From: a virus
Direction: 5' to 3' (one strand)
Virus record (IMG/VR): IMGVR_UViG_3300046674_000388
Span: 1-55,930 of that record
Length of the DNA stretch: 55,930 bases
The notes under the pieces are model-generated. The model searched no databases. It was not told the origin of the DNA and saw only the letters and a program-made list of their open reading frames with translations. Shown here in pieces: positions 4,171 through 50,892 of the stretch (positions are counted from its first letter, which is position 1; each line of letters opens with the position of its first letter). A program made the translations under genes and the position numbers.

Positions 4171-4186
4171 AAGGCTCTTACCCTCG

Positions 4187-4226
4187 ATAACCTTCCTTAT
4201 CAAGGCTTATTGATAGGCTGTCAGGC
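4187..4226 (+). promoter_or_regulatory. AT-rich inverted repeat in front of the tyrosine recombinase
   Basis: An AT-rich patch in a GC-rich genome. Arms CCTTATCAA (4195-4203) and TTGATAGG (4210-4217) form a near-perfect dyad. TAGGCT at 4215-4220 could be a -10 box placing transcription start at or near the ATG at 4227, which has no ribosome site, so a leaderless message is possible. It could be an operator, an arm-type integrase site or part of attP. All readings are inference. Confidence 0.4.
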
Positions 4227-5267
4227 ATGGACAACGACCGGCTCCCGGCCGTCATCGACGCCGAACTCCTGCCCGACACCACGGGATCTGTCGAGCACAC
4301 GCTCACACCCGAGGCAGCCGCCCTCCTCGATGCCGCCGACGCCGCCAACACCAAGCTCGCCTACAGCCGCCAGTGGGGCGCCTTCCACAGCTGGTGCCAG
4401 GACCACGGCGTCACCGCCCTGCCCGCCACCTCGAAGACGCTCGCCAACTACGTCGGGCACCTCGCCACCACCCCGTCAGCGCGAACCGGCCGCACCCCGG
4501 CTCCCAGCAGCATCGAGCAGGCCATCGCCGTCATCCGCTCCGCCCACAAGCACGCCGGACACAAGGGCCACCCGGACACCACCGAGGCACTGAAAGCGCT
4601 GAAGGCGTACAGGAAGCAGCTCGCCAACACCGGGCAGCGCAAGCGCAAGGCCCCACCCATCACCCTCGCCAAGGTCCGGCTCCTCGTCGAGTCCTGCGAC
4701 CCGGGCACGCTCGCCGGACTCCGCGACCGCGCCATCCTCGTCCTCGGCTTCGCCATGATGGCCCGCCGCTCCGAACTCGCCGGCCTCCACCTGGAGGACG
4801 TCGTCGAGGACGACAGCGGCGACCTGACGATCCTGGTCCGCTCCTCGAAGACCGACCAGGCAGGCGAGGGCGTCGAGGTCATCGTGCCGCGTGGCGTCCA
4901 CGACGGCACCGATCCGGTCCGCGTCGTCCGTGCCTACCGGCAGGCCCTCGCAGCCCGAGGCATCACCACCGGCCGGCTCCTGCGCGCCATCAACCAGTGG
5001 GACCAGGTGAGCCACGACTCGATGTCCGGGGGTGCCATCAACGAGATGGTGCAGCGCCGGGCTGCCGTCGCACTGCCCGGGGATGGGCTGGCGTACACCG
5101 CGCACGGTTTCCGGGCGGGTGGGGCGACCGAGGCGTACCGCAACAAGGCGCCGATCTCGTCGATCCGCATGCAGGGCCGGTGGGCGGAGAACTCGCCGCA
5201 GGTGCTGGAGTACATCCGCGCTGTCGACGCGCGCGAGGAGAACCCCATGCGCGGCATCGGCCTGTAG
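4227..5267 (+). CDS. int: Tyrosine recombinase / integrase
   Basis: 346 residues. The N-terminal core-binding (SAM-like) domain spans about 25-135 and the catalytic domain about 145-346. Visible catalytic residues are Arg180 (in ARRSEL), Lys208 (SSKTD), His293 and Arg296 (HGFRAGG), Trp319 in the second-His position (GRW) and the nucleophile Tyr329 (LEYIR). All are present, so the enzyme should be active in strand exchange between attP and attB. The start has no ribosome site and may be leaderless. A strong terminator follows. It is the first of two integrases of different type here; which one integrates the phage cannot be told from sequence. Confidence 0.9.
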   Translation: MDNDRLPAVIDAELLPDTTGSVEHTLTPEAAALLDAADAANTKLAYSRQWGAFHSWCQDHGVTALPATSKTLANYVGHLATTPSARTGRTPAPSSIEQAIAVIRSAHKHAGHKGHPDTTEALKALKAYRKQLANTGQRKRKAPPITLAKVRLLVESCDPGTLAGLRDRAILVLGFAMMARRSELAGLHLEDVVEDDSGDLTILVRSSKTDQAGEGVEVIVPRGVHDGTDPVRVVRAYRQALAARGITTGRLLRAINQWDQVSHDSMSGGAINEMVQRRAAVALPGDGLAYTAHGFRAGGATEAYRNKAPISSIRMQGRWAENSPQVLEYIRAVDAREENPMRGIGL

Positions 5268-5277
5268 AAGCGCCACC

Positions 5278-5307
5278 GCCCCCGCTCGGCTTCGGCCGGG
5301 CGGGGGC
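5278..5307 (+). terminator. Terminator after tyrosine recombinase
   Basis: A 13-bp stem (GCCCCCGCTCGGC with GCCGGGCGGGGGC, one G:U pair) closed by a TTCG tetraloop and followed by ATTT, 10 bases after the stop codon. Confidence 0.8.
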
Positions 5308-5350
5308 ATTTCGTCATGTCCGGGCGACCCGCCCCCTTGATGAATGCGTG

Positions 5351-5407
5351 GTTGCATCTAGCAATCCTTGTTGCTACCTTAGTTTCAACAAGACGAAGCG
5401 GAGGGGA
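5351..5407 (+). promoter_or_regulatory. Promoter/operator region of the 319-aa gene
   Basis: An AT-rich stretch between a terminator and the next start. CTTGTTG (5367-5373) and CAACAAG (5386-5392) are a perfect 7-bp inverted repeat; TTGC (5352-5355) and GCAA (5361-5364) form a smaller one. A ribosome site GGAGGGGA lies at 5400-5407. No convincing -35/-10 pair was fixed. Confidence 0.45.
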
Positions 5408-5409
5408 CC

Positions 5410-6369
5410 ATGGCCAGCACCGAGCAGCTCATCACCCACTACCTGGACCAGGCAGCAGCCTGCGAGCAGGCCAAGACCGAGCTCAAGAAGGACCGCACCC
5501 TGCGCGACAAGGGCGCCGACCTCCGCAAGGCCACCAGCGCCTACACGCTCGCCCAGCGCCGCTGGAACGACGCCGCCCGCCACCTCACCGACGGCAACCT
5601 CTCGGAGGCCGCCAGCCAGGCCGCCGACGCCATCCAGTTCCACATCAAGGGCAACGAGCGCCGGGCCGCACTCCAGGGCGGCGTCGCCGAGTTCCCCCCG
5701 GCAGCCGAGCCGTACGTGGTCCCCCTCGACGAGGCCGACACCGAGGCGATCACCGTCACCGAGACGATCGCCGTCAACGACCCCGACACCGGCGCCGCGC
5801 AGTTCCTGTACCACACGGGTACCACCGCCGACGGCCGCCACGTCGAGATCGGCGAGGACGCAGACAGCGCCGACGCCCCGCACTTCTACCTCCACCCCAG
5901 CGTGGCCTCGGCCCGCGAGGCCACGCTGTCAGCGGTCGTCGACCAACTTCTCGACTGGATCCCCTACGCGGCCAGACACCGCGCAGTCTTTCTCGGCTGG
6001 GGTGATCACCACCGGGTGAGCGCGGTGCCCCACACCGGCCAGACGTGGCGGTCCGCCGTCCGGGACGGCCTGCGGATGTCCTTCACCGAGCATCCGTCCC
6101 GGGCGGAGGCTGTCCAGGCCGCCCTCGGAGAGGCCGAGCAGATCGCCGAACGGCTGATGTCCAGCCAGGACCGGGTAGGGGAACTGGGTGGCCTGTGGCT
6201 GGCCCGCCGAACAGCCGAGGCCAAGGCGGAGGAGTACCAGGCGCGATTCGTCGAGCGGCTGCGCGAGGCCAAGGTGGACCGGGTGGTCGACCGGTACGGG
6301 CAGGTCTCCAACGACGAGTTCGCCCGCATGGCCGGTGTCTCGGTGCAGGCGATCAACAAGATGCTGTGA
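5410..6369 (+). CDS. Helical protein with C-terminal HTH-like end, unknown function
   Basis: 319 residues, soluble, no Cys. The N-terminal 90 residues are charged helix (EQAKTELKKDRTLRDKG). A middle acidic, beta-rich part (about 95-165) is followed by a helical C-terminal part, and the last 25 residues (YGQVSNDEFARMAGVSVQAI) look like a helix-turn-helix. It has its own promoter region and is bounded by terminators on both sides, so it is an independent unit, perhaps expressed in the lysogen. It may be a DNA-binding accessory or a superinfection or defence factor; nothing in the sequence decides. Confidence 0.6.
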   Translation: MASTEQLITHYLDQAAACEQAKTELKKDRTLRDKGADLRKATSAYTLAQRRWNDAARHLTDGNLSEAASQAADAIQFHIKGNERRAALQGGVAEFPPAAEPYVVPLDEADTEAITVTETIAVNDPDTGAAQFLYHTGTTADGRHVEIGEDADSADAPHFYLHPSVASAREATLSAVVDQLLDWIPYAARHRAVFLGWGDHHRVSAVPHTGQTWRSAVRDGLRMSFTEHPSRAEAVQAALGEAEQIAERLMSSQDRVGELGGLWLARRTAEAKAEEYQARFVERLREAKVDRVVDRYGQVSNDEFARMAGVSVQAINKML

Positions 6370-6375
6370 CAGGCC

Positions 6376-6409
6376 ACCGCCCCGCTCTCCTCCGGGAGGA
6401 CGGGGCGGT
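6376..6409 (+). terminator. Terminator after the 319-aa gene
   Basis: Outer arms ACCGCCCCG and CGGGGCGGT enclose a further TCTCC/GGAGG stem with a TCCG loop; it begins 7 bases after the stop codon. Its symmetry means it can also stop leftward transcription from the GntR side. Confidence 0.8.
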
Positions 6410-6423
6410 TCGCGTGTCTGGGG

Positions 6424-6620
6424 TCAGCCTGCGTCGCGTACGGCGTCGATGAGGGCCTGCCACGTCTGGTGGTGACACCTCTCGGTGCGGGCCTGCTCCC
6501 AGATGGGGCAGGCTCGACATCCTCGCCGGCACGGGCGGCGGTTTCCATGGCGAGCTCGGCCTGGCGGGCGAGACGGTGGAGGGCGATCAGGTCATCGGGG
6601 ATGGCGAGGGCTGCTGGCAC
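6424..6620 (-). pseudogene. Small protein gene with an apparent frameshift
   Basis: On the minus strand a GTG at 6620 opens a frame reading PAALAIPDDLIALHRLARQ and onward to about 6510, typical of a small helical phage protein. The same frame then turns into Arg/Pro-rich nonsense that runs antisense into the 319-aa gene. A second frame from about 6515 reads ACPIWEQARTERCHHQTWQ and ends DAVRDAG at a stop (6426-6424) just before the shared terminator. The two halves look like one gene split by a one-base shift near 6505-6520. It sits 15 bases downstream of the GntR gene. It could be a real mutation or a sequencing error. Confidence 0.5.
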
Positions 6621-6635
6621 CTGGCCATCGTACGG

Positions 6636-6866
6636 TCAGCCCCGCAGCGCAACGAAGGACCCCAGCCCCGGTTCGGTGTACACCAGCCCTTCGGCCCGCA
6701 GCGCCTTGTGGACCTTCTGGCTGGTCGCGGTGGCGATCCCGAATTCACTCTGCAGTTGCAGTACGGACGGGATCCGGCTGCCGGCCGGGTACTCACCGGA
6801 CTCGATGCGCTCGGCAATGACGTCACGGACCTGCCGCCACCGGGGCACGTCGGGTTGGAACTCCAT
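6636..6866 (-). CDS. GntR-family transcriptional regulator (winged-helix only)
   Basis: 76 residues from the ATG at 6866; a longer frame to 6941 exists but would read through the operator-like region. The protein is a full GntR winged helix: PRWRQVRDVIAERIESGEYP, then IPSVLQLQSEFGIATATSQK as the recognition helices, and LVYTEPGLGSFVAL as the wing. No effector domain follows, as in KorSA-type regulators of actinomycete plasmids and short phage GntR proteins. It faces the rightward genes from 7023 and probably represses its own and the divergent promoter. Confidence 0.8.
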   Translation of the reverse strand: MEFQPDVPRWRQVRDVIAERIESGEYPAGSRIPSVLQLQSEFGIATATSQKVHKALRAEGLVYTEPGLGSFVALRG

Positions 6867-6887
6867 GCCAGGACCGTAGGCAGACCA

Positions 6888-6945
6888 TGCCATACCAGGC
6901 GAGATGTGGCATACCTGCCATGGTGTAGCACGCCATAGCATGGTG
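6888..6945. promoter_or_regulatory. Operator-like repeats between GntR gene and rightward genes
   Basis: TGCCATACC (6888-6896) and TGGCATACC (6907-6915) are near-identical direct repeats 19 bp apart. The second is also part of a dyad, TGGCATACCTGCCA (6907-6920). CATGGTG recurs at 6919 and 6939. Spacing by about two helical turns fits a dimeric GntR repressor. Binding is inferred. Confidence 0.5.
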
Positions 6946-7022
6946 CCCTACGCTGAGCACGAGAAAGGCCCCGCAGCCGTGTCACCGGCCCGGGGCGTGG
7001 ACGACCCTACGGAGGTCGACAG

Positions 7023-7235
7023 ATGCAGGCTACCCGGCCACCCGAGCTGGCGGCAGCCCTCGACGGCGACACCCTGACCCGCGACCAGCTGCATGCCGAG
7101 GCGTGCCGGTACGACGGGGTGCACGTCGGGCCCCTCGCCCCCGCCGGCCACGTCTACACGACGCCGGCCGAGCCCGGCGAGCCGCTCGGCTGGGCAGTTG
7201 CCGCGTGCCTGCCGTGCGCAAGGAGGGTGGCATGA
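7023..7235 (+). CDS. Small phage protein, 70 aa, unknown
   Basis: The ATG is preceded by GGAGGTCGAC. 70 residues with three Cys (ACRYDG, ACLPCARR), the last pair a CxxC that might bind zinc with a partner. It is the first rightward gene beyond the GntR operator region and overlaps the next gene by ATGA. Confidence 0.55.
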   Translation: MQATRPPELAAALDGDTLTRDQLHAEACRYDGVHVGPLAPAGHVYTTPAEPGEPLGWAVAACLPCARRVA

Positions 7236-7495
7236 CCTTCACAGCCACCGGCCTGGAGCGGCCCGACCTCGCGCACGTCCCTGACCACATCTGGCCGCCG
7301 CACCGCGAGACCGTCGACCTCGTCGTCGAGTTCGACCTGCGGCTCGGCGGCCGGTACGTAACCGCCGAGTGCCAGATGGGCGCGCACCACGCCTGCCCCG
7401 GCGGGCTCTTCACCGAGGGCCGCTCTCAGGATCTACGCTGCATGTGCGTCGCCGACGGCTGCAGCTGCAAGCCGCGGCAGGAGACGACCCGGTGA
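7232..7495 (+). CDS. Cys-rich small protein, 87 aa, unknown
   Basis: Coupled to the gene before by ATGA. The C-terminal half carries six Cys (AECQMGAHHACPGG and RCMCVADGCSCKPR), a pattern consistent with a small metal-binding knuckle. The N-terminal half is beta-like with no recognised fold. Function unknown. Confidence 0.5.
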   Translation: MTFTATGLERPDLAHVPDHIWPPHRETVDLVVEFDLRLGGRYVTAECQMGAHHACPGGLFTEGRSQDLRCMCVADGCSCKPRQETTR

Positions 7496-7704
7496 CCGAC
7501 CGCTTCGAGGTGCGCAAGCAGGTGCTGCACGGACAGGCCGGCTGGGTGCCGTGGGACACGCAGAAGAACAGGCCCGGCTCCAGTTGGTCACCGTCCCACG
7601 AACGCGTCGCTGCCTGGTGCCGACGGGAGAACGACGGGACTGTCAGTGACCCCGGCTACGGTGAGTCGCGTAAGAAGGATTGGACCGGAACGCCAAGGGC
7701 ATGA
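7492..7704 (+). CDS. Small phage protein, 70 aa, unknown
   Basis: Begins at a GTG overlapping the previous stop (GTGA). The sequence (RFEVRKQVLHGQAGWVPWDT) is a mixed alpha/beta pattern seen in short Streptomyces proteins. Its 3' end overlaps the convergent XRE gene by 49 bases, so the two transcripts are antisense there. Confidence 0.5.
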   Translation: MTDRFEVRKQVLHGQAGWVPWDTQKNRPGSSWSPSHERVAAWCRRENDGTVSDPGYGESRKKDWTGTPRA

Positions 7705-7895
7705 GCCAGTAACAGCAGTACGTCGAGGCTCGGGCTATGGGTGCCGAGCTCGGTCCGGTAGACGGTATGCCGGTCCAGCCCAGCCCGATGAGCAAGCCGC
7801 TCCTGGCTGAGCCCCCGTTCGACGCGAATCGCTCGGATGTGGGCGCCGATCCGTCGGCGCTGGTCGAGGACATCAGGGGGAAGTTCGGCGGGCAC
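7656..7895 (-). CDS. XRE-family helix-turn-helix regulator
   Basis: 79 residues from GTG 7895. The HTH_3 fold is clear: IGAHIRAIRVERGLSQERLA as helices 1-2, AGLDRHTVYRTELG as the recognition helix, then SPSLDVLLLLAHALGVPVQS. No oligomerisation or peptidase domain follows. It probably controls the palindromic region immediately upstream (7912-7949) and so itself or the nearby recombinase. Confidence 0.8.
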   Translation of the reverse strand: MPAELPPDVLDQRRRIGAHIRAIRVERGLSQERLAHRAGLDRHTVYRTELGTHSPSLDVLLLLAHALGVPVQSFLRDSP

Positions 7896-7911
7896 TCCGC
7901 CACGCTTGCCC

Positions 7912-7949
7912 GATCATGATCAAAAGTCTGCCGCATATATGAGGCAGAC
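7912..7949. promoter_or_regulatory. Palindromes upstream of the XRE gene
   Basis: GATCATGATC (7912-7921) is a perfect 10-bp palindrome. GTCTGCC (7926-7932) and GGCAGAC (7943-7949) are a perfect 7-bp inverted repeat around the AT-rich GCATATATGA, which could hold a -10 box on the minus strand. Likely the promoter and operator of the XRE gene. Confidence 0.55.
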
Positions 7950-7994
7950 CCACAGACTCCCCGGCCAGCAGCCCCCAGGCGCAGCCGGGGAAGA

Positions 7995-8026
7995 GCCGGC
8001 CCCCGCGGTGCACCGCGGGGGCCGGT
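7995..8026 (-). terminator. Terminator of the serine recombinase gene
   Basis: GCCGGCCCCCGCGGTG (7995-8010) pairs almost perfectly with CACCGCGGGGGCCGGT (8011-8026). It starts 2 bases beyond the recombinase stop codon, read leftward. Confidence 0.75.
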
Positions 8027-8027
8027 G

Positions 8028-9443
8028 CTATGCGTCGAGGGGTACCATCCGGCCAGGCTCGAAGCGTCGCTGCCCCTCGGTAGCAGGCAGTACCCGGTAC
8101 CCGGACGTGACCGCGCGCACCACATCGCGGCGCCCCGCAGGGTCGAGCCTCAGCCACTCCTCCACTGGGTCACCTGCGAGGAGCGCCCGGACCACGCCGG
8201 GCAGCGCGGATCCAAGCAGGGCTTTGCTTTCCTGGATGCGCGCGCTGATGATCGTCCTGGCCTCGTTGTACTCCGGGAACGTCAGCTCACGCCGGGCCCA
8301 CATACCGGCCAGCTCTTTCAGCTGCTGCTCGTCCGCCGCCAACTCGGTGCGGGCTGCGGCCACGGTGTCGTCCGCGAACGTGCTTTTCATGGCTGCGATG
8401 ACGGTCGGGGCGCCCAGGAACTGCAGCATCTGTCGTTCGATCTCGGCTTCTGCCCGGGGGGCGCTGATCGTGATCTTGCCGCAGCCGCCGCGGGTCGTCG
8501 CACACCAGTACCGCAGATCGGACTTCGACCCCCACCCGACCAGCCAGCGGTCGCACCGGCTGCACAGCAACACGCCGTTCAGCCAGCGGATCAGGGCGTT
8601 GTTCTCGCCGGGCAGCGTCCGCCGCTCCTTCAGCGCAGCCTGCACCTGGGTCCAGACGTCGCGGTCGAGGATGGGTGGCCAAGCGGCCTCGCCAACGACC
8701 TCGCCACGGAACACCCGCAGGCCCGTAATCCGGGGGCTGCCCATGGTGTTCCGTACGCCGCGGGTGGTCCACGCTTGGGCGTAGGGCGGGGGTGGCCCCT
8801 CCGCGTTGAGGTGCCGCATGACGCCGTGGATGCTCTCGCCGGCGAGCAGGAGTTCGGCCATGGTGCGGATCCCCTGAGCCTCGGCCTCACGGATGGTCAT
8901 GCCGTCGGGCTCGTAGCCGAAGGCGCGCAGGCCGCCGCCGGCGGGTTTGCCCTTCTCGGCGAGCTCCTCGTGCTTGCGGGCGACGCGGCGCGAGGTGTCC
9001 CTGCTCGACTTGTTGGCGACGGCGACCATGACGCGGGCCATGGTGATGTCCGCGTCGGTGTCGAGACGGAGGGAGCCGGTGACGCTGGAGACGGGGACGC
9101 GCCGCTGCTCAACGACGTCGATGAGGTCTTCGAGGTCGCGGGGGTCGCGGGTGTACCGGTCGAGGTCGTATGCGAGCAGGCCGTCGCGTTCGCCGCTAGC
9201 CAGCAGGGCGAGGGAGCGGCGCAGGCCGGGGCGGAAGGTGCGCATGGCGGTGGTGCCGTCCGGCAGGGTGACCTTGCGGCGCTTGAAGGCCGAGGTGTCG
9301 TTCTCGACGATGACCTCGGCGATTCCCCAGCCGAGCCGGTCGCCGTGCAGCCGTCCGTCCGTCTCCTGGCGGGCGACACCCAGGCCCTCGCCTTCACGGT
9401 CGTCCGAAATTCGAACAAGCAGAATGGCCCTCTTCGGCAGCAT
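8028..9443 (-). CDS. int: Large serine recombinase / serine integrase
   Basis: 471 residues, the usual length. The resolvase catalytic domain (about 6-150) has the nucleophile Ser13 (LLVRISDDREG) and the conserved LLAYDLDRYTRDPRDLEDLI. The recombinase domain follows at about 165-275 (AFGYEPDG; GLRVFRGEVVG), then a zinc ribbon with Cys294, Cys297, Cys314 and Cys321, and a coiled-coil segment (about 360-430). It is intact and should cut both DNA partners with 2-bp overhangs. A 52-bp dyad lies 4 bases upstream of its start and is the natural attP candidate. This is the second integrase of the genome. Confidence 0.9.
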   Translation of the reverse strand: MLPKRAILLVRISDDREGEGLGVARQETDGRLHGDRLGWGIAEVIVENDTSAFKRRKVTLPDGTTAMRTFRPGLRRSLALLASGERDGLLAYDLDRYTRDPRDLEDLIDVVEQRRVPVSSVTGSLRLDTDADITMARVMVAVANKSSRDTSRRVARKHEELAEKGKPAGGGLRAFGYEPDGMTIREAEAQGIRTMAELLLAGESIHGVMRHLNAEGPPPPYAQAWTTRGVRNTMGSPRITGLRVFRGEVVGEAAWPPILDRDVWTQVQAALKERRTLPGENNALIRWLNGVLLCSRCDRWLVGWGSKSDLRYWCATTRGGCGKITISAPRAEAEIERQMLQFLGAPTVIAAMKSTFADDTVAAARTELAADEQQLKELAGMWARRELTFPEYNEARTIISARIQESKALLGSALPGVVRALLAGDPVEEWLRLDPAGRRDVVRAVTSGYRVLPATEGQRRFEPGRMVPLDA

Positions 9444-9447
9444 GGTT

Positions 9448-9499
9448 GATAGGTTACACCTGACACTTCGGAGTGCCCAAATGGCTAATGTAACCTATC
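9448..9499. other. Candidate attP for the serine recombinase
   Basis: Outer arms GATAGGTTAC (9448-9457) and GTAACCTATC (9490-9499) are a perfect 10-bp inverted repeat. The symmetry continues inward: counting pairs from the centre at 9473/9474, 18 of 26 are complementary. Total length 52 bp, position next to the integrase start, and a non-palindromic central GT fit known serine-integrase attP sites. Core and dinucleotide are inferred from symmetry only. Confidence 0.6.
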
Positions 9500-9936: not shown

Positions 9937-10335
9937 TCATGTGTTCGAATTGGGCCTTCGAATGAGGATCTCGGCGATCTGCAGCATCTCCTGCCGGCCG
10001 CGCTCGTCCATCTCGCCCATGTGGTCGGCGACGACGCGGATGTCTCCGTCCTCCGACCAAACTGCGTCGTCCTTGATGTCGAGGAACTGCGCAGCGGCAG
10101 CGCGGGCCACGGTCTGGTAGCTGAGCTGCAAGCCACGAGCGAGGGCTGCGAGGCGCTCCCGTCGGGGAACATCCCGAAGCTTTCCGGTCTCCAATCGGGC
10201 AACCCAGGACGAAGCCATGGTCGGATCGCCGCTGGAGGCCGCGACCCCGTCCATCGACAGGCGAAGCTCGCCGCGGCGCTCCTTGCACAGGCGGGACAGG
10301 TCGTCCCGGGTCACTTCGGTCATGACAGCCATCAT
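9937..10335 (-). CDS. XRE-family repressor-like regulator
   Basis: 132 residues from the ATG at 10335, chosen because AGGAG lies 7 bases upstream; an upstream frame to 10392 lacks a site. The N-terminal HTH covers about 6-75 (DDLSRLCKERRGELRLSMDG then SSWVARLETGK). The C-terminal helical part (about 95-132, HMGEMDERGRQEMLQIAEIL) is a likely dimerisation helix. It is transcribed away from the operator-rich control region, and is the best candidate for the lysogeny repressor, though the rightward 100-aa HTH protein is the alternative. Confidence 0.75.
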   Translation of the reverse strand: MMAVMTEVTRDDLSRLCKERRGELRLSMDGVAASSGDPTMASSWVARLETGKLRDVPRRERLAALARGLQLSYQTVARAAAAQFLDIKDDAVWSEDGDIRVVADHMGEMDERGRQEMLQIAEILIRRPNSNT

Positions 10336-14958: not shown

Positions 14959-15170
14959 GCGCCGACCGCCGCCAGTACGCGGACCCCGTTGACCGGCATG
15001 ACGCCTACCCGCTGCTGATGCGCGACGAGACCCTCGCCGAACGCGACCGGGCCCGCCTCAAGGTCGCCTCGATGTCGACAGACGCCGTCGACCTGCAGCA
15101 CCTGCTTGGCGTCCTGGGGCTCGACCAGCCGGCCGAGATCCGCGACCAGGTCCAGCAGTACCGGACCTGA
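14955..15170 (+). CDS. Small helical protein, 71 aa, unknown
   Basis: GTGA overlap with the WhiB-like gene. Charged helix (RDETLAERDRARLKVASM), then LQHLLGVLGLDQPAEIRDQV. No recognised family. Confidence 0.5.
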   Translation: MSADRRQYADPVDRHDAYPLLMRDETLAERDRARLKVASMSTDAVDLQHLLGVLGLDQPAEIRDQVQQYRT

Positions 15171-15180
15171 CCCCCTGTTC

Positions 15181-15215
15181 GCCCGTGGCGGGGCGACACC
15201 ACCCCCGCCACGGGC
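15181..15215 (+). terminator. Strong hairpin between WhiB group and replication genes
   Basis: GCCCGTGGCGGG (15181-15192) pairs perfectly over 12 bp with CCCGCCACGGGC (15204-15215). It lies in a 77-base gap with no gene and could be a terminator or attenuator. Confidence 0.6.
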
Positions 15216-15247
15216 ACCCAACCCCACCGACCGAGGACGCCGAGCAG

Positions 15248-16216
15248 ATGCCCTGGTTCGCCATCGACGACGGCTTCTACAGCCACCCGAAGGTCCGCAA
15301 GGCAGGTAACGCCGCCGCCGGACTGTTCTGCCGGCTCGGCGCGTTCAGCGCCAAGCACTCGACCAACGGACAGATTGACGGCGTCGTGGCCCGCGACTAC
15401 GGCACCGCCGCCCAACTGGCCAAGCTCGTCACCGTTGGGATGCTCCACGACGAGCCTCACGCCTGCGACTCCACGCGCTGCCTGCAGCCGCCAATCGGCG
15501 GCTACGCCATCCACGACTACCTCTTCTATAACCGCTCCCGGAAGCAGGTTGAGGCGGCCCGGGAGGCCGGCCGCAAGCGTCAGCAGAAGGGCCGCGACGC
15601 GCAGGCCGAAGCACGAACCGGGCCTCAACCGGGCCTCAACCGGGCCTCACCTGAAACTCAGGCGAACCCCGGGTGGGCCCCGATTACCCCCCAAAACGAA
15701 TCCCGGTTTTCAGGTAGGACAGCAGGTCAGGAGGGTTCGTCACGGCGTGACACCCTCCAGGGTCCAACGGTGGTCCCCTCCCACCCCCTCCCCTCCCCGT
15801 TCTCTCCTAACGGAGAGAACGGGGCCCCTACTACAACGGAGCGAGCAGCGGCCTACCCGGATCGCCTCGTCGAGCTCAAGCAAGCAATCGCCGCAGCCGG
15901 AATCGCCGGGATCGAATGGCGCCTCAGGCCCTCCCAGTGGGAGTACACCCGCCAAGCGCAGGAGCGCGTCGGAGTCCCCGCGATGGTCGCCTACGCCATC
16001 CGCTCCGTGCAGCTCAAGGGAGCGCCCACGGGCGCCAGCGCCTGGGTCGACGGATGGTGCTCCCTTGAAGCCCCGCCCGAGAACGGCGTGACCTACCTCC
16101 CCGCCGTCGTCAACGGCCCCGCGCGCCCATCCACCACCGACCAGCGCGTCCAGCAGGCCATCGAAGCCGGACGCCGAGTCCAAGCCATGGCCGACGCCCG
16201 GAAGGGGCAGCAGTGA
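15248..16216 (+). CDS. Replication initiation-like protein (winged-helix N-terminus)
   Basis: 322 residues; ATG preceded by CGAGGACGCCGAG. The first 115 residues (WFAIDDGFYSHPKVRKAGNA; AARDYG-type helix; GGYAIHDYLFYNRSRKQVEA) form the winged-helix domain found at the start of many actinobacterial phage replication proteins of the DnaD/replisome-organiser kind. A low-complexity linker (about 115-195) joins it to a C-terminal helical region (about 200-322). It should bind the origin or load helicase with the next gene product. Linker codons show repeated GGCCTCAACCG, a local duplication. Confidence 0.6.
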   Translation: MPWFAIDDGFYSHPKVRKAGNAAAGLFCRLGAFSAKHSTNGQIDGVVARDYGTAAQLAKLVTVGMLHDEPHACDSTRCLQPPIGGYAIHDYLFYNRSRKQVEAAREAGRKRQQKGRDAQAEARTGPQPGLNRASPETQANPGWAPITPQNESRFSGRTAGQEGSSRRDTLQGPTVVPSHPLPSPFSPNGENGAPTTTERAAAYPDRLVELKQAIAAAGIAGIEWRLRPSQWEYTRQAQERVGVPAMVAYAIRSVQLKGAPTGASAWVDGWCSLEAPPENGVTYLPAVVNGPARPSTTDQRVQQAIEAGRRVQAMADARKGQQ

Positions 16217-16944
16217 CCACCGAGACCATCACCTTCGACGAGGTCGGCGAGTTCCTCGGCCTCGCCGCAGCCCGCGACCAGCGCACCGTCGGCGACGCCG
16301 ACATCCTCGCCTGGCACGCCGACCTCAACGCCGCCGGCGTCACCATGACCGCCGCCACCAATGCCCTCACCCACTACTACGCCGTCCTCGCCCCCAAGCT
16401 CGACCCCCACCAGCGCCACCGCGTCAACGCCCCCGACCTCCTCGCAATCATCCGCAAGGCCCGCGCCGACCGGCACAACCAGGGCACCTACGTTGACGAC
16501 GGCAGCCGCCCCGACGAGACCGCCCAGCAGTACGTCGCCCGCAAGCGCTCCACCGAACGCGCCATCGGCGACGGCCGGATGCAGCCGCCACCCGCCATCG
16601 CCGCGATTGGCCCCGCCCCTGCCAACGGCCCGCAGGAGCTCACCGAAGACGACGTCCGCGCCCTGCGCCAGCAGAAGGACCTGATGCGGATGATGCGCGA
16701 GGCCGGCCGCGAGGCCGCCGTCAAGGACCAGGCCCGCAAGGAACTCGTCCTGCGCTACCCAGATCTGGCCGAGCGTCTCGCGAAGGAACACGGCCTCTCG
16801 TCCGCCGACAAGTGGAACGGCCGCATCCCTCCCGAGTTCACCGGCGGCGGCGCCCGCAACCCGTGGCCGATCCGGACGGCGCTTGTCGAGATCGTCGCCG
16901 AAGCCGAAGCCCGCGCTGCTACGGCCAGCCGCGCGGCCGCCTGA
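16213..16944 (+). CDS. Replication-module protein, possible helicase-loader role
   Basis: 243 residues, GTGA-coupled to the initiator-like gene. N-terminal helical domain (TFDEVGEFLGLAAARDQRTV; TMTAATNALTHYYAV; NAPDLLAIIRKARAD) is a recurring domain in actinophage replication regions. A charged middle helix (RQQKDLMRMMREAGREAAVK) and a C-terminal domain follow. No Walker motif, so it is not an ATPase. Role inferred from the neighbour only. Confidence 0.45.
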   Translation: MTTETITFDEVGEFLGLAAARDQRTVGDADILAWHADLNAAGVTMTAATNALTHYYAVLAPKLDPHQRHRVNAPDLLAIIRKARADRHNQGTYVDDGSRPDETAQQYVARKRSTERAIGDGRMQPPPAIAAIGPAPANGPQELTEDDVRALRQQKDLMRMMREAGREAAVKDQARKELVLRYPDLAERLAKEHGLSSADKWNGRIPPEFTGGGARNPWPIRTALVEIVAEAEARAATASRAAA

Positions 16945-16959
16945 ACGGAAGTCACGTTG

Positions 16960-17190
16960 ATGCCGAGCCACCGCTGCCCACCCACCTGCCACCGCTGCCC
17001 CCACCTCAACGACGACGTCATGCCCGGCTGCATGGGCACCGCAGCAATGTCCACCGAGCCCCGCTCCCTCTTCTGGTGCACCTGCAGCGCGGCACTACCC
17101 ACCGATGCCAGCCCAGCAGCACTCATCGCCACCCTCACCGCCCGGGTCGACGAACTCGAACAACGCCTCGCCAACCTCGAAGCCCGCTGA
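16960..17190 (+). CDS. Cys-rich small protein with coiled-coil end, 76 aa
   Basis: Start taken at ATG 16960 (a TTG lies one codon upstream). Seven Cys, including CPPTCHRCPH and WCTCSA, suggest one or two zinc knuckles. The last 25 residues (IATLTARVDELEQRLANLEA) form a short coiled coil for dimerisation. Possibly a small DNA- or RNA-binding accessory. Confidence 0.55.
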   Translation: MPSHRCPPTCHRCPHLNDDVMPGCMGTAAMSTEPRSLFWCTCSAALPTDASPAALIATLTARVDELEQRLANLEAR

Positions 17191-17202
17191 ACGGAGACCG
17201 AC

Positions 17203-17481
17203 ATGCCCGCCCCGCTGTTCTTCGTCACCCTCGACGGCACCAACTACCCCCTCGCCTCTTGCCGCTGGGTCCGCATTGGCCCCGACGGCTGCGCGACCGG
17301 CAGCCACCACGGCGATGCCTTCACCAGCCCCGAGACTGCCGCCGCCTACTGGACGCCGAACCAGCGGGACCGGAAACGCGAGCACGGCCGCGGTATCCGC
17401 TACCGCCTCGTCAGCCCCGACGAGTGGGCCGGTCTCAAGCCTTGCCTCATCGGCGAGTGCGTCCATCAGCAAGCCGCCTGA
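17203..17481 (+). CDS. Small phage protein, 92 aa, unknown
   Basis: Ribosome site GGAGACCGAC. Sequence LFFVTLDGTNYPLASCRWVR begins a beta-rich domain of the kind seen again in the 98-aa product at 26607 (VDIDGQRVPLDECGW, then a Gly-Cys region). The two may be distant relatives. Function unknown. Confidence 0.5.
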   Translation: MPAPLFFVTLDGTNYPLASCRWVRIGPDGCATGSHHGDAFTSPETAAAYWTPNQRDRKREHGRGIRYRLVSPDEWAGLKPCLIGECVHQQAA

Positions 17482-17558: not shown

Positions 17559-18695
17559 ATGAGCCCCGCCAGCACAATGACTGCCGACCAGTGGAACGAC
17601 CGCTACCCGGTTGGCACGTCCGTGACTGCCTACCCCGGCATCCGACCCGAGCGTGCCGCCAAGTCCGTCACTGCCGATGTCACCACCCTGACGACCTACA
17701 CCCGCAGCCGGGCCTGGAGCCTCGGCCACGGCGAGCCGGTCGTCATGGTCGAGGGCTACGCCGGCGGCATCTCCCTGGAGCACGTCGACATCCGGGTGCA
17801 GACCGACCCTCACGTCCGCGCCGCCGAGATCGCCGCCGTCCGAGCCCAGGCCGAGCGGCGCAAGCAGCTCGCCGCGGCCCGGGTCTCCGAGGACGTCCTG
17901 CAGCGGCAGATCGACGCCCAGGCCCGCGAGATCGACCAGCTCCGCGAGCGACTCGCCGCCGCCGAGAAGACCGCCACCGGCACAATGACCGCCGACCTCT
18001 TCGCCATCGCCCTGCGCGTCCTCGCCGCCACCGACCCGGCGAGCTGCGGCACCTGCCGCAGCCTCGCCAGCCAGGGACAGCCTGCCGAGCACGCCGCCTG
18101 CCCCCGCCGGGCCGTCCTCCTCCCCGCCCCGGACGCCCCCGACTACGAAGACCTCGGCGACCTCACCGACGAGCAGCGCGCCGCTCTCCCGCCTCGCTTC
18201 CACACCCCGGTGTACGACGGCGACAAGACGCCCGCCGGATGGCTGTGCGCCGTCTGCTGGGGCGACGGATGGGCGACCGCCTGGCCGTGCCAGGTCGCGA
18301 CCAAGCGCGGCGGCGAAGTCTTCACGGCCGAGCACCACGCCGAACGCTGGCGCAGTGACACCTACGCCCTCGCCAACGGGGTGCACGGCCTCACCGTCGA
18401 ACTCGACAAAGCCCAGGCCAAGGCCGTGGTCGAGCACGGCGTCAACAGGCACCTTGCCGACAAGCACGCCGCGACCCTCGCCGCCACCGACGAGTGGATG
18501 GACGAGCGCGCCCAACTCCTCGCCGACAACCACCGGCTCACCAGCGAGCTCGCCGCCATCGACGACGAGATCGAGGAGTTCGAGGCCGCCGCCGATGGCG
18601 ACCCCGCCACCCCGAACGGCGTGCTGCTGATGATCCAGCTCCTCCGCCGCATCCGCCCTGCCAGGCCGATGGCCTCCGCTGGCGGTGCGTCGTGA
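17559..18695 (+). CDS. Coiled-coil protein with central Cys cluster, 378 aa
   Basis: ATG after GCAGGAGCCCGCC. The N-terminal 90 residues are beta-like (VGTSVTAYPGIRP; SRAWSLGHGEPVVMVEGY), followed by a coiled coil (about 90-145, RQIDAQAREIDQLRERLAAA). A central part has Cys pairs (SCGTCRSLA, LCAVCWGDGW, WPCQVATK), and a second coiled coil ends the protein (about 265-350). I do not recognise the family. Confidence 0.5.
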   Translation: MSPASTMTADQWNDRYPVGTSVTAYPGIRPERAAKSVTADVTTLTTYTRSRAWSLGHGEPVVMVEGYAGGISLEHVDIRVQTDPHVRAAEIAAVRAQAERRKQLAAARVSEDVLQRQIDAQAREIDQLRERLAAAEKTATGTMTADLFAIALRVLAATDPASCGTCRSLASQGQPAEHAACPRRAVLLPAPDAPDYEDLGDLTDEQRAALPPRFHTPVYDGDKTPAGWLCAVCWGDGWATAWPCQVATKRGGEVFTAEHHAERWRSDTYALANGVHGLTVELDKAQAKAVVEHGVNRHLADKHAATLAATDEWMDERAQLLADNHRLTSELAAIDDEIEEFEAAADGDPATPNGVLLMIQLLRRIRPARPMASAGGAS

Positions 18696-19177: not shown

Positions 19178-19399
19178 TCAGTCGGTGCGCGGTACGTGCC
19201 CGGTGAGGATCGCCACGGCGGCGTCCACGCCGCCAACGGAGCGGATGAGCTCGCCCAGTTCGACGGGGACGATGGCGGCCTGGGGCTTGTCGCGGCGGGT
19301 GAGGAAGACGCAGCGGCGCAGGAGTCGGACCGAGGCGATGACCTCGGTGATGTTGGCGCGGGCTTCGCTGATCGGGATGTTCTCGTCGGTCTGATCCAT
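19178..19399 (-). CDS. Phd/YefM-like antitoxin, orphan
   Basis: 73 residues from the ATG at 19399. The Phd/YefM core is clear: ENIPISEARANITEVIASVR, then FLTRRDKPQAAIVPVELGEL. Such proteins bind their own promoter and neutralise a toxin. No toxin gene is seen on either side (19115-19177 is too short), so it may be an anti-addiction protein against a host toxin, or just a repressor. It is the only leftward gene within this rightward block and its promoter overlaps the repeat at 19427-19450. Confidence 0.75.
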   Translation of the reverse strand: MDQTDENIPISEARANITEVIASVRLLRRCVFLTRRDKPQAAIVPVELGELIRSVGGVDAAVAILTGHVPRTD

Positions 19400-23146: not shown

Positions 23147-24550
23147 ATGGCCACCCAGCACGCCGGCGGCAGTGTCACGCTCCACCTGGGCAACAGCCTG
23201 GACGTGCTCGCTGGCCTGCCTGACGCCAGCATCGACGCCATCGTCACCGACCCTCCATACGAGATCGGCTTCATGGGCCGCACCTGGGACTCCACCGGCA
23301 TCGCCTACAACGTCGAGCTGTGGCGGCACTGCTGGCGCGTCCTCAAGCCCGGCGGACACCTCCTCGCGTTCGGCGCCGCCCGCACCTACCACCGCCTCAC
23401 CGTCGCCATTGAGGACGCCGGCTTCGAGATCCGCGACTCCATCCACTGGATCTACGGCTCCGGCTTCCCCAAGGGCCAGGACATCGCGAAGCTGATAGAC
23501 CGCCGACGTGACGACCGCGAGCAGGTCCTGCAGGTCACCGCGTGGCTCGCCGCCGCCCGAGACGTCGCGGGCTGGACGAACAAGCAGATTGACGCGCTGT
23601 TTGGCTTCACCGGCGACATGGCAGGCCACTGGACTACCCAGGGCAAGGCCGCCTCTGTGCCCCGCCCCGAGCAGTGGGACCGCCTCCGCTCCGAGCTCGG
23701 CTTCGACGACACCGAGATCCTCCCCACTGTCGAGGAGATCAACGGCCGCAAGGGCCTGCTCGGCGAGGCCTGGGCCCGCCGAGAGGTCGTCGGCGAGGCG
23801 CACCGAATCCGCCGTGAGTCCGACGTGCAGCTCGCCGGACTCAGCAGCGGCACCTACACCCTCACCGCCCCCGCGACCGGTGCGGCCCGCCAGTGGGCCG
23901 GCTGGAACACCCAGCTCAAGCCATCGCACGAGCCCATCGTCCTCGCCCGCAAGTCCACCGGCTTCGAGTCCACCGTCGCGAACGTCCTCCTCCACGGCAC
24001 CGGCGCCCTCAACATCGACGGCTGCCGCACCGCGACCACCATCGGCGACGACTACCAGGCAAAGTGCGCGTCCGTCGTCGGCCTCGCCTCGAACCGCAAC
24101 GGCACGACGCTCGGCGAGTGGACCGGCACCCGCGAGGACAGCTCGCACCCGGCCGGCCGCTGGCCCACCAACATCCTGCTCGGCCACGGCCCCGACTGTG
24201 TCGATGGCGACCAGTGCGAGGCCGGTTGCCCGGTCGGCGAGCTTGGCCCGCGCGGCCGGTTCTTCCCCGCGTTCCGGTACGAGGCCAAGGCCCCCGCGTC
24301 GGAGCGCCCACGTACCGCCGACGGCACCGCGCACACCACCGTCAAGCCCCTCGCGCTGATGCGCTGGCTGGTCCGCCTCGTCACCCCGCCCGGCGGCCTC
24401 GTCCTCGACCCGTTCGCCGGGTCCGGCACCACGTTGGAGGCCTGCGTGCTGGAAGGCATGCGCGCCGTCGGTGTCGAGCTCGACCCGGCGCATGCCGAGC
24501 TGTGCCGGGCCCGCCTGTCAAAGCCGATCGACCTGCCCCTTTTCGCCTGA
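23147..24550 (+). CDS. DNA adenine/cytosine-N4 methyltransferase
   Basis: 467 residues. Motif IV DPPY is at 35-38 and motif I FAGSGTT at 423-429, so motif IV comes first, the beta-class order. RWLVRLVTPPGGLVLDPFAG shows the SAM-binding strand. A long inserted middle (about 95-340, starting WIYGSGFPKGQDI) is typical of phage enzymes that often carry their own target domain. DPPY fits N6-adenine best. No cognate endonuclease is near, so it is probably a self-protection or regulatory enzyme rather than part of a restriction pair. A hairpin terminator follows. Confidence 0.85.
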   Translation: MATQHAGGSVTLHLGNSLDVLAGLPDASIDAIVTDPPYEIGFMGRTWDSTGIAYNVELWRHCWRVLKPGGHLLAFGAARTYHRLTVAIEDAGFEIRDSIHWIYGSGFPKGQDIAKLIDRRRDDREQVLQVTAWLAAARDVAGWTNKQIDALFGFTGDMAGHWTTQGKAASVPRPEQWDRLRSELGFDDTEILPTVEEINGRKGLLGEAWARREVVGEAHRIRRESDVQLAGLSSGTYTLTAPATGAARQWAGWNTQLKPSHEPIVLARKSTGFESTVANVLLHGTGALNIDGCRTATTIGDDYQAKCASVVGLASNRNGTTLGEWTGTREDSSHPAGRWPTNILLGHGPDCVDGDQCEAGCPVGELGPRGRFFPAFRYEAKAPASERPRTADGTAHTTVKPLALMRWLVRLVTPPGGLVLDPFAGSGTTLEACVLEGMRAVGVELDPAHAELCRARLSKPIDLPLFA

Positions 24551-25262: not shown

Positions 25263-26552
25263 ATGCAGCCCGACACGCTGGACCTGTTCGCCGGCCCCGG
25301 CGGCTGGTCCGAGGGCCTCCGCCGCTGGCACGGCATCCCGGACATCGGCATCGAATGGGACGCCGCCGCCTGCCGCACCCGGGCCGCCGCCGGGCACCAC
25401 ACCGTGCGCGCCGACATCGCCACCCTCGCCACCGCACCAATGCGCGGCCGTATCCGCCGCCTCATCGCCTCCCCGCCCTGCCAGGCATGGTCACGCGCCG
25501 GCAAGCGCCTCGGCCTCGTCGACCAGCCCCTCGTTCACCAGGCCGTTCACGACCTTGCCCACGGCCGCGACACCCGGGCGAAGCTGCTGACCGTCTGCAA
25601 GGACCCGCGGTCGCTGCTCGCCGCCGAACCGATGCGCTACCTGGCCGACCTGCGGCCCGACGACGTGGTCATGGAGGAAGTCCCCGACGTGCTGCCGCTG
25701 TGGCGGCAGTACGCCGAGACGCTGCGCGGCTGGGGCTACAGCGTGTGGACGGGCGAGCTGAACGCCGCGGACTACGGGGTCCCGCAGACCCGCCGCCGGG
25801 CGATCCTCATCGCCTCCCGGGTACGAGCCGTACAGGCCCCGAGCCCGACGCACGCCCGGGACGCCGAAGAGCCCGACCTGTTCGGTGCGGCACGGCCCCG
25901 CTGGGTGTCAATGGCTGACGCCCTCGGCTGGGGTGCTACCGACCGGCCCGTGCCCACGGTGACGGCCGGCGGCGGGAAGACGGGCGGCGCCGAGCCGTTC
26001 CCCACGCAGGCCCGCGCGGCCCTCGCGGCGTCCCGCGACCGCGGCGACTGGATCCTCCACACCCGGCGCGGGCACGTCCGTGCGGACGGCGAGCGGCAGT
26101 TGGTCGACCCCCAGGGACAGCCGGCGCCGACCGTCACCACGATGACGGGTGAGCAGTGGGTCCTGCGGTCCGGGCAGTCCGTTGCAGGGGAGGGCCGTGC
26201 GACCCGCGGCCTGGACGAGCCCGCCGTCACTATCACCGGCCGCGCCGACCTGTGCGCCTGGACGACCGAACGGCCCGCGACCACCGTGTGCGCCACCGAC
26301 CGGATCGCCCGGCCCGGCCACCGCGACCGCAGCCCCGGCGGCGAGGCGCAGTTCACCGACTCGGTGCGCATCACCGCCATCGAGGCCGCGCTCCTCCAGT
26401 CGTTCCCCGCCGGCTACCCGTGGCAGGGAACGAAGACTAAGCAGTTCGAGCAGATCGGTAACGCGGTGCCGCCGCTGCTGGCCGCGCACGTGTGTGCCGC
26501 GGCGTTCGGTCTGCCGCAGCCCACCGCCACCCCCGCGGCCCTGGCCGCCTGA
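25263..26552 (+). CDS. DNA (cytosine-5) methyltransferase
   Basis: 429 residues. Motif I DLFAGPGG (7-14), motif IV PPCQ with catalytic Cys73, motif VI present as EEV (138-140) instead of the usual ENV, motif VIII QTRRRA (175-180), and motif X GNAVPP (399-404). All residues needed for C5 methylation are visible apart from the Asn of ENV, replaced here by Glu. The target recognition part carries four copies of a PTVT-like phrase (near 228, 286, 319, 337), also seen in other phage Dcm-type enzymes. No partner nuclease is near. It may protect the DNA from host restriction. Confidence 0.85.
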   Translation: MQPDTLDLFAGPGGWSEGLRRWHGIPDIGIEWDAAACRTRAAAGHHTVRADIATLATAPMRGRIRRLIASPPCQAWSRAGKRLGLVDQPLVHQAVHDLAHGRDTRAKLLTVCKDPRSLLAAEPMRYLADLRPDDVVMEEVPDVLPLWRQYAETLRGWGYSVWTGELNAADYGVPQTRRRAILIASRVRAVQAPSPTHARDAEEPDLFGAARPRWVSMADALGWGATDRPVPTVTAGGGKTGGAEPFPTQARAALAASRDRGDWILHTRRGHVRADGERQLVDPQGQPAPTVTTMTGEQWVLRSGQSVAGEGRATRGLDEPAVTITGRADLCAWTTERPATTVCATDRIARPGHRDRSPGGEAQFTDSVRITAIEAALLQSFPAGYPWQGTKTKQFEQIGNAVPPLLAAHVCAAAFGLPQPTATPAALAA

Positions 26553-33160: not shown

Positions 33161-35413
33161 ATGTCCGAGTACACGACCGGCCCCACCCCCGGCCCCGCCG
33201 ACGACGAACCCGGCGTCTACGACCTCACCAAGAACTTCCCCGCCGAGTACCTCGCCGAGCTGGAAACCGCGATGCAGGCCGAAGCCTCACTCAGCGAGCA
33301 CGGCCGCCGCGGCGCCATGGTCGGCACCATCATCGAACCGACCATCCCGCAGCAGCGCGGTTGGGCCACCGAGGCTGCGGCACGGGCGCTCCCCGCCTGG
33401 GCTGCCGACCCCGAGACCCTGGCCCGGTCCGTCCGCCAGGCCCGCGCCGAAGCCGTCTACCGGGTCCTGTTCCACACGATGCGGACCCCCGCCTACGCCG
33501 CCCGCGTCCTGCTCCTCGCCAGCCGAGGCGCCTGGGCCGCTCCCCGCGACGCCGCGCACTTCTTCCTCGCCGGCGAGTACAACACCGGCATCAAAGCCGC
33601 GAAGAAGAGCCGCGACGACGCCCGTGTCCTGGTGCTCCGCGACGAGAAGGCGTCCGTCACCAAGGACCGGCAGCGCTCCGCCCGCCACCTGGTCGCCACC
33701 GGCGGGTCCCTCACCTACGTCGGCGCGGCCGTCCTCACCGCCATGGCCGGCCAGTGGATCGTCGCCGGGCCGCTCCTCGCCCTGCTGACCGGCGTCCTCG
33801 CCGTCATCGGCCACAAGGACAAGACCGGAGCCGACCCCGCGTTCCACCTCCTCGACGCCACCCCCACCACCACCGGGCCCGTCACCGACACACGCATCGA
33901 GGAGGCGTTCCGCGCCGCCGGCGTCATCGGCGCCAAGGAGGCCCTGCAGTTCACCGGCGCTGGCACCGGTCGGGAGAAGACCGCCGCCGTCGCCACCCTC
34001 AAGCTGCCCGCCGGCACCATCGCCGCCGACGCCATCAAGAAGCTCCGCGAGATCGCCGGCGCCCTCGACGTAGCCGCCTCCCAGGTCGACATCCGCCAGG
34101 AAGGCGCCGAGTCCCGTCTGTCCATCTGGATCGCCGACAAGGACCCGTTCGCCACCTCCCGCCGCTCCCCCCTCCTCACCCACCGCGGCCCCATCGACGC
34201 GTTCACCGACGGCATCCCCGTCGTCTTCGACAAGCGCGGCCAGGCCGTCCCCCTCACCATCCGCGACGCCATGCTGCTGATCGCCGGCATGACCCGCTCC
34301 GGCAAGGGCGTCGGCTACTCCTCCGTCGTCTGCGGCGCCGGCATGGACCCGCGCATCAACATCCGCAACGTGTACGGCAAAGCCACCGGCGAGCACGTCC
34401 CCTACGCCCCGGTCTGCGCCACGTTCTTCAAGCGCAACCCCGAGCGCCTCGCCCTGCTCCTGCAGATCCTGGAGAAGGAGCTCCTGCGCCGCGAGGACCG
34501 CCTTGCCGACCTCGGCACCGACAAGCTCACCCCCAGGCTCCTGGAAGAGATGCCGATCGAGCTCGTCCTGATCGACGAGTTCGCCTTCTACGTCGGCGAC
34601 GAGAAGGACGAGACGGCCAAGCAGATCATCGCCTCGCTGAAGCAGATCGCCGCGATGGGCGCCGCCCTCGGCGTGCTCCTCGTCCTCGCCACCCAGGACC
34701 CCAACGCCAAGCTCGTCCCGTCCCCTCTGCGCCGGAACTTCCTCAACCGGTGGGCGATGCGGGTGGAGTCCGCGGACGCCTCCAACGCCATCCTCGGCGG
34801 CGCCGCATCGGGCGCCGGCTTCGACTCCTCGAAGCTGCCGGAGGGAACCCCGTCCGGCGTCGGCCACCTGCGCACCATCGACGGCACCCGGCTGACCCGC
34901 TCCTACTTCATCGACCGGGAACGCGGCGAGGTCGACGAGCTGATCGCCCGCGGCGTGGTGTACCGGTCGGAAGCTGGCCGCCTGGCCGGGCAGTTCGACG
35001 ACCCGATCGAGCAGGCACTGCTCGCCGCGACCGGCTTCACGTCCGCCTCGGGCGGGCCGCGTGGGGACGGCCGGCCGGGCAAGGCCGACATGCGGCAGTC
35101 CAGCGTGCGGGGCCTCCTCGGCGAGCTCCTCCAGGTGTTTGCCTCGGCCGGGAACCCGGAGCGGCTGACCACCTCGGCAATCGTCGCCGGCCTGGCCCGG
35201 ATCAACCCGGCCGACTGGCAGAAGGTCGCCGACGACACCGCGGCGAACGCCGGTACTGCGCTGAAGAACGCCATCACCCGCGCCCTCGCCAAGGACGCCG
35301 CCGAGGCTGGTCGTCCGCCTCGGATTCTCGACTCCGACCAGTGGGGCGGCAAGGACAAGGGCCGCGGCTACTGGCTGACCGCCGTTCGTGCCGCTGCCGG
35401 AATTGTCCAGTAA
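33161..35413 (+). CDS. FtsK/TraB-like DNA translocase
   Basis: 750 residues. Two membrane spans lie at about 180-222 (TYVGAAVLTAMAGQWIVAG). The ATPase has Walker A GMTRSGKG (376-383), in which Arg takes the place of the usual Gly and Gly follows Lys, and Walker B LVLIDEF with Asp472-Glu473. LLVLATQDPNAKL at about 505 is the FtsK-type sensor region. The C-terminal 130 residues are helical with no clear gamma (KOPS-reading) domain. Such proteins move double-stranded DNA in Streptomyces conjugation (TraB, TraSA) or chromosome segregation. In a phage it could help replicate, partition or deliver DNA. Confidence 0.8.
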   Translation: MSEYTTGPTPGPADDEPGVYDLTKNFPAEYLAELETAMQAEASLSEHGRRGAMVGTIIEPTIPQQRGWATEAAARALPAWAADPETLARSVRQARAEAVYRVLFHTMRTPAYAARVLLLASRGAWAAPRDAAHFFLAGEYNTGIKAAKKSRDDARVLVLRDEKASVTKDRQRSARHLVATGGSLTYVGAAVLTAMAGQWIVAGPLLALLTGVLAVIGHKDKTGADPAFHLLDATPTTTGPVTDTRIEEAFRAAGVIGAKEALQFTGAGTGREKTAAVATLKLPAGTIAADAIKKLREIAGALDVAASQVDIRQEGAESRLSIWIADKDPFATSRRSPLLTHRGPIDAFTDGIPVVFDKRGQAVPLTIRDAMLLIAGMTRSGKGVGYSSVVCGAGMDPRINIRNVYGKATGEHVPYAPVCATFFKRNPERLALLLQILEKELLRREDRLADLGTDKLTPRLLEEMPIELVLIDEFAFYVGDEKDETAKQIIASLKQIAAMGAALGVLLVLATQDPNAKLVPSPLRRNFLNRWAMRVESADASNAILGGAASGAGFDSSKLPEGTPSGVGHLRTIDGTRLTRSYFIDRERGEVDELIARGVVYRSEAGRLAGQFDDPIEQALLAATGFTSASGGPRGDGRPGKADMRQSSVRGLLGELLQVFASAGNPERLTTSAIVAGLARINPADWQKVADDTAANAGTALKNAITRALAKDAAEAGRPPRILDSDQWGGKDKGRGYWLTAVRAAAGIVQ

Positions 35414-50758: not shown

Positions 50759-50892
50759 CCCGAGCCCGCACGATCCTCGGTCTGTGCGACCGCTGGCACA
50801 AACTGCCGTCCGAGGTGCTGGCCGAGCCGGCGGAGATGCTCCGCCTGCTGGAGATCGCCCACATGGGCCGACGCGAGGAGGTGCCTGAGTGA
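50333..50892 (+). CDS. Tail assembly chaperone, -1 frameshift form
   Basis: Read in the start frame to 50674, then in the -1 frame from base 50674 to the stop at 50890-50892, giving about 186 residues. The -1 frame stays open from the slip and encodes ARTILGLCDRWHKLPSEVLA and AEPAEMLRLLEIAHMGRREE, the typical gpGT-like end. Its stop overlaps the tape measure GTG. Both forms are normally needed in a fixed ratio for tail assembly. Confidence 0.8.
50668..50674 (+). other. Programmed -1 ribosomal slippery site
   Basis: C CCT TTG (heptamer CCCTTTG, X XXY YYZ form) is in the correct phase: codons CCT at 50669-50671 and TTG at 50672-50674 of the chaperone frame. Confidence 0.8.

Follow-up and report, generated by a model that had tools for sequence, protein, structure and literature searches.

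The Streptomyces-type siphophage analysed here carries two site-specific recombinases, and the tasks are probably divided between them: a large serine recombinase for integration and a Cre/MrpA-type tyrosine recombinase for circularisation or multimer resolution. The window, i.e., the whole stretch of DNA that was analysed, is a virus record of 55,930 bp. In a preliminary description the two enzymes had been presented as two intact integrases of different chemistry, about 2.8 kb apart and each with its own terminator and candidate site. Both reading frames were indeed found with intact catalytic residues, they are separated by 2,760 bp, and candidate sites lie beside both genes. The terminators were recovered in part: GC-rich hairpins can be read behind both genes, but neither was flagged by the terminator scan, because they lack a T-run. 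The two-integrase reading holds for the serine enzyme, which is likely an integrase, but not for the tyrosine enzyme, which looks like a Cre/MrpA-type recombinase with a lox-like site. The features of the region are:

4178-4209, + strand: lox/mrpS-like site, a 13-6-13 bp inverted repeat conserved in 22 other loci
4227-5267, + strand: predicted Cre/MrpA-type tyrosine recombinase, 346 aa, ATG start, with R180, K208, H293, R296, W319 and Y329
5277-5307, + strand: GC-rich hairpin, probable terminator, directly 3' of the Cre-like gene, read from the sequence
7995-8024, - strand: GC-rich hairpin, probable terminator, directly 3' of the serine integrase gene, read from the sequence
8028-9443, - strand: large serine integrase, 471 aa, ATG start, nucleophile S13, zinc ribbon C294/C297/C314/C321
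9448-9499, no strand assigned: candidate attP for the serine integrase; 11-bp dyad without mismatch, GATAGGTTACA - 30 bp - TGTAACCTATC
9937-10335, - strand: HTH protein, candidate repressor, beside the serine integrase; its Pfam HTH_31 match scores under the curated cut-off

Terminase, portal and major head protein genes are located at ~40-45 kb of the window, a tape-measure-sized long gene at 50.9-53.7 kb, and lysin and holin genes at 2.0-4.2 kb, and the tail genes extend past the right contig end. Both contig ends match separate parts of one gene, gp26 of phage Dryad (right end 15005-17269, left end 17987-18160), and therefore the contig probably represents nearly all of a genome that is circular or circularly permuted and was opened within this gene. 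The closest family of the terminase is PBSX, with a score under the model cut-off, and headful packaging would fit with such an enzyme. As comparison with known phages at the DNA level gave weak pieces only, the search for relatives relied on proteins. Scanning for promoters and terminators gave no useful information in DNA so rich in G+C.

The residues R180, K208, H293, R296 and Y329 of the tyrosine enzyme are invariant in an alignment of 36 sequences and W319 is present, which completes the R-K-H-R-W-Y set on a protein that is homologous to Cre and MrpA over almost its whole length. In a phmmer search against all PDB chains P1 Cre and its derivatives were the sole significant matches (1.6e-9). 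When the AlphaFold model (pLDDT 87.8) was compared with the PDB, ranks 1-33 were all taken by Cre or Cre variants with E-values down to 1e-13, and Xer enzymes came next with a clearly weaker match (2e-6). The enzyme is 33% identical to SCP2.07c of the Streptomyces coelicolor plasmid SCP2 (AL645771) over 98% of its length (5e-30). It also matches a PHROG integrase family (8.5e-17), the Pfam Phage_integrase score of 24.8 bits stays below the cut-off of 27.1, and no extra N-terminal arm-binding domain was seen. In a phylogenetic tree the enzyme clusters with those of phage relatives, SCP2 and ZL12, away from canonical integrases, which were taken from related records; the deep order of this tree is unsure due to long branches. 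Judged by sequence and predicted fold, the tyrosine enzyme thus looks like a Cre/MrpA-type recombinase and not like a second integrase. An assignment as chromosomal XerC or XerD was rejected, as the NCBIfam scores are far under the cut-offs (XerD 40.0 of the 329.6 bits needed, XerC 24.9 of 335.15). A lambda-type integrase was rejected as well, in view of the Phage_integrase score and of the copy number of the site, as each phage record has one copy and each bacterial genome a single good one.

The next gene downstream of the Cre-like gene encodes a 319-aa protein (5410-6369, + strand), for which no family match was found in Pfam, PHROGs or NCBIfam. A small GntR-type gene is located at 6636-6848 (- strand), and in L002, L003, L004, L007, L115, L117 and L118 homologues of it follow the Cre-like gene at a distance of ~2-6 kb. 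Nonomuraea ceibae (L039, 11978-12951) has a second Cre-like copy ~1 kb behind the first, and in Frankia sp. CIT1 (L051, 9890-12443) another tyrosine recombinase frame comes directly after the Cre-like gene.

Beside the Cre-like genes a compact inverted-repeat core site is conserved. In the window it consists of the left arm TTACCCTCGATAA (4178-4190), the spacer CCTTCC (4191-4196) and the right arm TTATCAAGGCTTA (4197-4209). A site with this 13-6-13 layout precedes the Cre-like gene in 23 loci, window included, with the consensus TAACCCTCGATAA-CCTGAC-TTATCGAGGGTCA. With a leave-one-out PSSM the window site reaches 44.0 bits, compared with 3.6 bits for the runner-up in the window. The two arms agree at 10/13 positions in the window and at 13/13 in L117. 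Across the loci, arms agree with their own partner at 10.8 of 13 positions on average, compared with 9.3 for shuffled partners, and none of 5000 shuffles reached the real value; this test is partly built in, because an inverted repeat was the criterion by which the sites had initially been chosen, and the leave-one-out score is the stronger evidence for the site. The matrix also detects sites outside its training set, namely upstream of the recombinase genes of SCP2 (TGGCTCTTGATAA-CGTTCC-TTCTCTAGAGCCA, 50 bp before the start codon, 27.9 bits), of ZL12 (51 bp upstream, 21.2 bits) and of the Microcystis phage Mwe-JY05 (32.6 bits). On seven serine-integrase loci without a Cre-like gene nothing above 5 bits was obtained, and several distant relatives (e.g., L041, L043, L044 and L046) show no comparable site. 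A spacer of 6 bp is the best fit in most loci, unlike the 8-bp spacer between the 13-bp arms of P1 loxP. The distance between site and gene ranges from 17 bp in the window up to ~450 bp in L004, which disfavours a simple role as operator.

The site occurs in single copy. All ten phage records that match the site pattern contain one copy each, and among nine bacterial genomes that carry a Cre-like gene, eight have a single copy at 0-1 mismatches. Most of these eight genomes also hold scattered places with 2-3 mismatches, which were rejected as second copies since they look like background or other systems. The ninth genome (G033) contains such 2-3 mismatch places alone, because its own site has different arms. 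Neither the window nor the bacterial genomes that were checked yielded a second good copy. The site therefore does not behave as an att site: insertion by the Cre-like enzyme would leave two copies, and hence it is probably not the enzyme that inserted these elements, although the search would miss a chromosomal partner that matches poorly.

The serine enzyme has the domain plan of a large serine integrase, with Pfam matches to Resolvase, Recombinase and, weakly, a zinc ribbon, and a PHROG integrase match of 6.4e-72. Its S13 and the cysteines C294, C297, C314 and C321 are invariant among three sequences. The P'-side of the candidate attP next to its gene, GTAACCTATC, is common to L010 and L011, and the core TGGGCACTCCGAA is common to L011. 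The neighbouring HTH protein is syntenic in L011 with 67% identity. Relatives of the enzyme with 54-55% identity are encoded in Streptomyces chromosomes immediately behind the 3' part of comEA, and what remains of comEA, followed by comEC, is found ~25 kb (G125) and ~17 kb (G327) away. As both parts of comEA could be located in G125 and G327, both junctions can be read there, and L010 has the same left junction. The integrated relatives L010, G125 and G327 thus show hybrid junctions, and the window has an attP-like dyad beside the gene. By eye, the attP core of the window differs from the junction cores of the comEA type. The elements in G125 and G327 carry an FtsK/SpoIIIE-like gene and may be conjugative elements rather than phages. 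Because of the adjacent attP-like dyad and of the chromosomal relatives between comEA and comEC, the serine enzyme is likely the phage integrase.

In relatives the Cre-like gene is accompanied by different integration enzymes. A canonical tyrosine integrase is present in G001 (414 aa, at the record end), G006 (472 aa, ~5 kb off) and G027 (~7 kb off), and a large serine recombinase in G020, where it is adjacent and convergent, and in G026 (~10 kb). The latter is a Kitasatospora element that looks incomplete; a homologue of the window gene at 50889-53687 lies almost directly before its Cre-like gene. G018 combines the Cre-like gene with a large serine recombinase and a Xer-like gene on a 98.7-kb record that may span two elements. 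ParA is found beside the Cre-like gene in G002 and G025, in which a second integrase was not found. Some other records with the Cre-like gene (e.g., G003, G016 and G017) show neither a second integrase nor ParA, and may be fragments. In phage relatives the Cre-like gene adjoins lysis genes and also the GntR gene. The preliminary description had proposed to look for relatives with just one of the two enzymes, and L011 is such a case, with the order lysin - serine integrase - repressor and without the Cre-like gene. Since the integrase varies while the Cre-like gene stays, the Cre-like gene with its site looks like a self-contained accessory module and not like one of two competing integrases. 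For the same reason a recent fusion with a second element is not needed; a fused element had been considered as the source of one enzyme.

Both kinds of system, Cre/lox and MrpA/mrpS, are already known, and the variant here is that the phage has an integrase of its own besides; the literature searched yielded no account of a Cre-like enzyme paired with an integrase in a phage. For P1, Cre resolves dimers or concatemers or circularises terminally redundant DNA. The window resembles P1 in the Cre-type sequence and predicted fold of the enzyme, in the single inverted-repeat site upstream of the gene and in the probable cyclisation or dimer-resolution role, but its spacer has 6 bp in the best alignment instead of 8 bp, and P1 is a plasmid prophage, whereas the window has an integrase. 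PMC3218068, citing Warth et al. 2011, describes MrpA, the tyrosine recombinase of SCP2, as resolving plasmid multimers, and in E. coli the expression of MrpA leads to multimers of a plasmid into which a single mrpS site had been inserted (PMC4685060). SCP2.07c, which we take to be MrpA, is annotated as putative integrase/recombinase and adjoins parA. The likeness to the window comprises the homologous recombinase, the 13-6-13 site upstream and similar spacers (CGTTCC in SCP2, CCTTCC in the window); however, SCP2 is a plasmid with ParA and the window is a phage with a serine integrase. ZL12 (pZL12) encodes a homologous recombinase with a comparable site, but it is an extrachromosomal Streptomyces plasmid-phage (PMC7157519). 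ParA was looked for in the window and is absent, and with the serine integrase being intact, a phage-plasmid of the P1 or pZL12 type was rejected. The R4-type serine integrases of Streptomyces phages share with the window enzyme the domain plan, an attP-like dyad by the gene and ~30-33% identity (R4 and relatives); the window enzyme belongs to a distinct subgroup, with its closest chromosomal relatives between comEA and comEC.

In the division of labour that we consider most likely, the serine integrase would recombine the attP-like dyad at 9448-9499 with a chromosomal attB and thereby insert the phage. The Cre/MrpA-type enzyme would bind the 32-bp site at 4178-4209 and recombine two such sites on one molecule, which would turn dimers or concatemers into monomers or circularise terminally redundant incoming DNA. 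The resulting monomeric circle would then be available for integration and replication. Both the recombination at 4178-4209 and its purpose in monomerisation or circularisation are inferred. As a RecE-type exonuclease gene is present in the window, general recombination could circularise the DNA without the Cre-like enzyme.

An alternative is that the tyrosine enzyme is a second integrase that uses another site in the chromosome. Its PHROG match places it in the integrase/recombinase superfamily, and enzymes of the Cre type are able to integrate DNA where the chromosome resembles lox. However, attL and attR would give two site copies where the gene-carrying bacterial genomes have one good copy, several relatives possess separate canonical or serine integrases, and the enzyme has neither an arm-binding domain nor a Phage_integrase score above the cut-off, so that we regard this reading as unlikely. 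The Cre-like gene and its site might also be a remnant, without a role, of a fused plasmid or plasmid-phage, in line with homologues on Streptomyces plasmids and on ZL12 and with an FtsK/SpoIIIE-like gene in the window. An old plasmid origin of the gene is possible, but loss of function does not fit: gene and site are intact, they are conserved in phage relatives beside the lysis and GntR genes, and the site is kept together with the gene in divergent phages. A roleless remnant is therefore rather improbable.

A DNA switch, which the preliminary description had also suggested, would mean that either enzyme inverts or excises an internal phage segment and so alters gene expression. Inverted repeats do adjoin both genes, but the window holds a single Cre-like site, which therefore has no partner for inversion, and of all readings we give this one the least credence. 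Very improbable, too, is an assembly chimera of two phages. The pairing of the two genes is known from an assembled record, and no relative with both genes in exactly the same order was found. On the other hand, the contig ends within Dryad gp26 are consistent with one near-complete genome, G020 and G026 also pair a Cre-like gene with a serine recombinase, syntenic relatives exist for each half, and L011 retains the order of the serine integrase region without the Cre-like gene. The pairing is not obviously an artefact and the finding is real.

The division of labour between serine integrase and Cre/MrpA-type enzyme would explain why one phage carries two 'integrases': one serves for integration, and the other probably keeps the phage DNA in order. 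Annotations as 'tyrosine integrase' in actinophages may in fact refer to enzymes of multimer resolution, and predictions of the attachment sites of prophages would be misled by this. The more than 20 Cre-like enzymes, with predicted sites that differ in arms and spacers, are candidates for orthogonal tools of the Cre-lox type. More tentatively, and with considerable doubt, temperate phages of actinomycetes might widely carry a Cre/MrpA-lox module that is independent of an exchangeable integration enzyme; such a module would allow phages to circularise or to remain monomers, and perhaps to alternate between a plasmid-like and an integrated prophage state.

Further genes were observed in the window. 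The FtsK/SpoIIIE-like protein (33161-35413, + strand, 750 aa) gave no relative in the phage collection by tblastn; in L036, L117, L123, L153, L157 and L166, FtsK/SpoIIIE-like genes lie close to a Cre-like or a serine integrase gene. A weak match to Phd/YefM antitoxins, with no evident toxin partner, is located at 19178-19399 (- strand). Two DNA methylases, of the N6/N4 and C5-cytosine types, are encoded at 23147-24550 and 25263-26552, both on the + strand.
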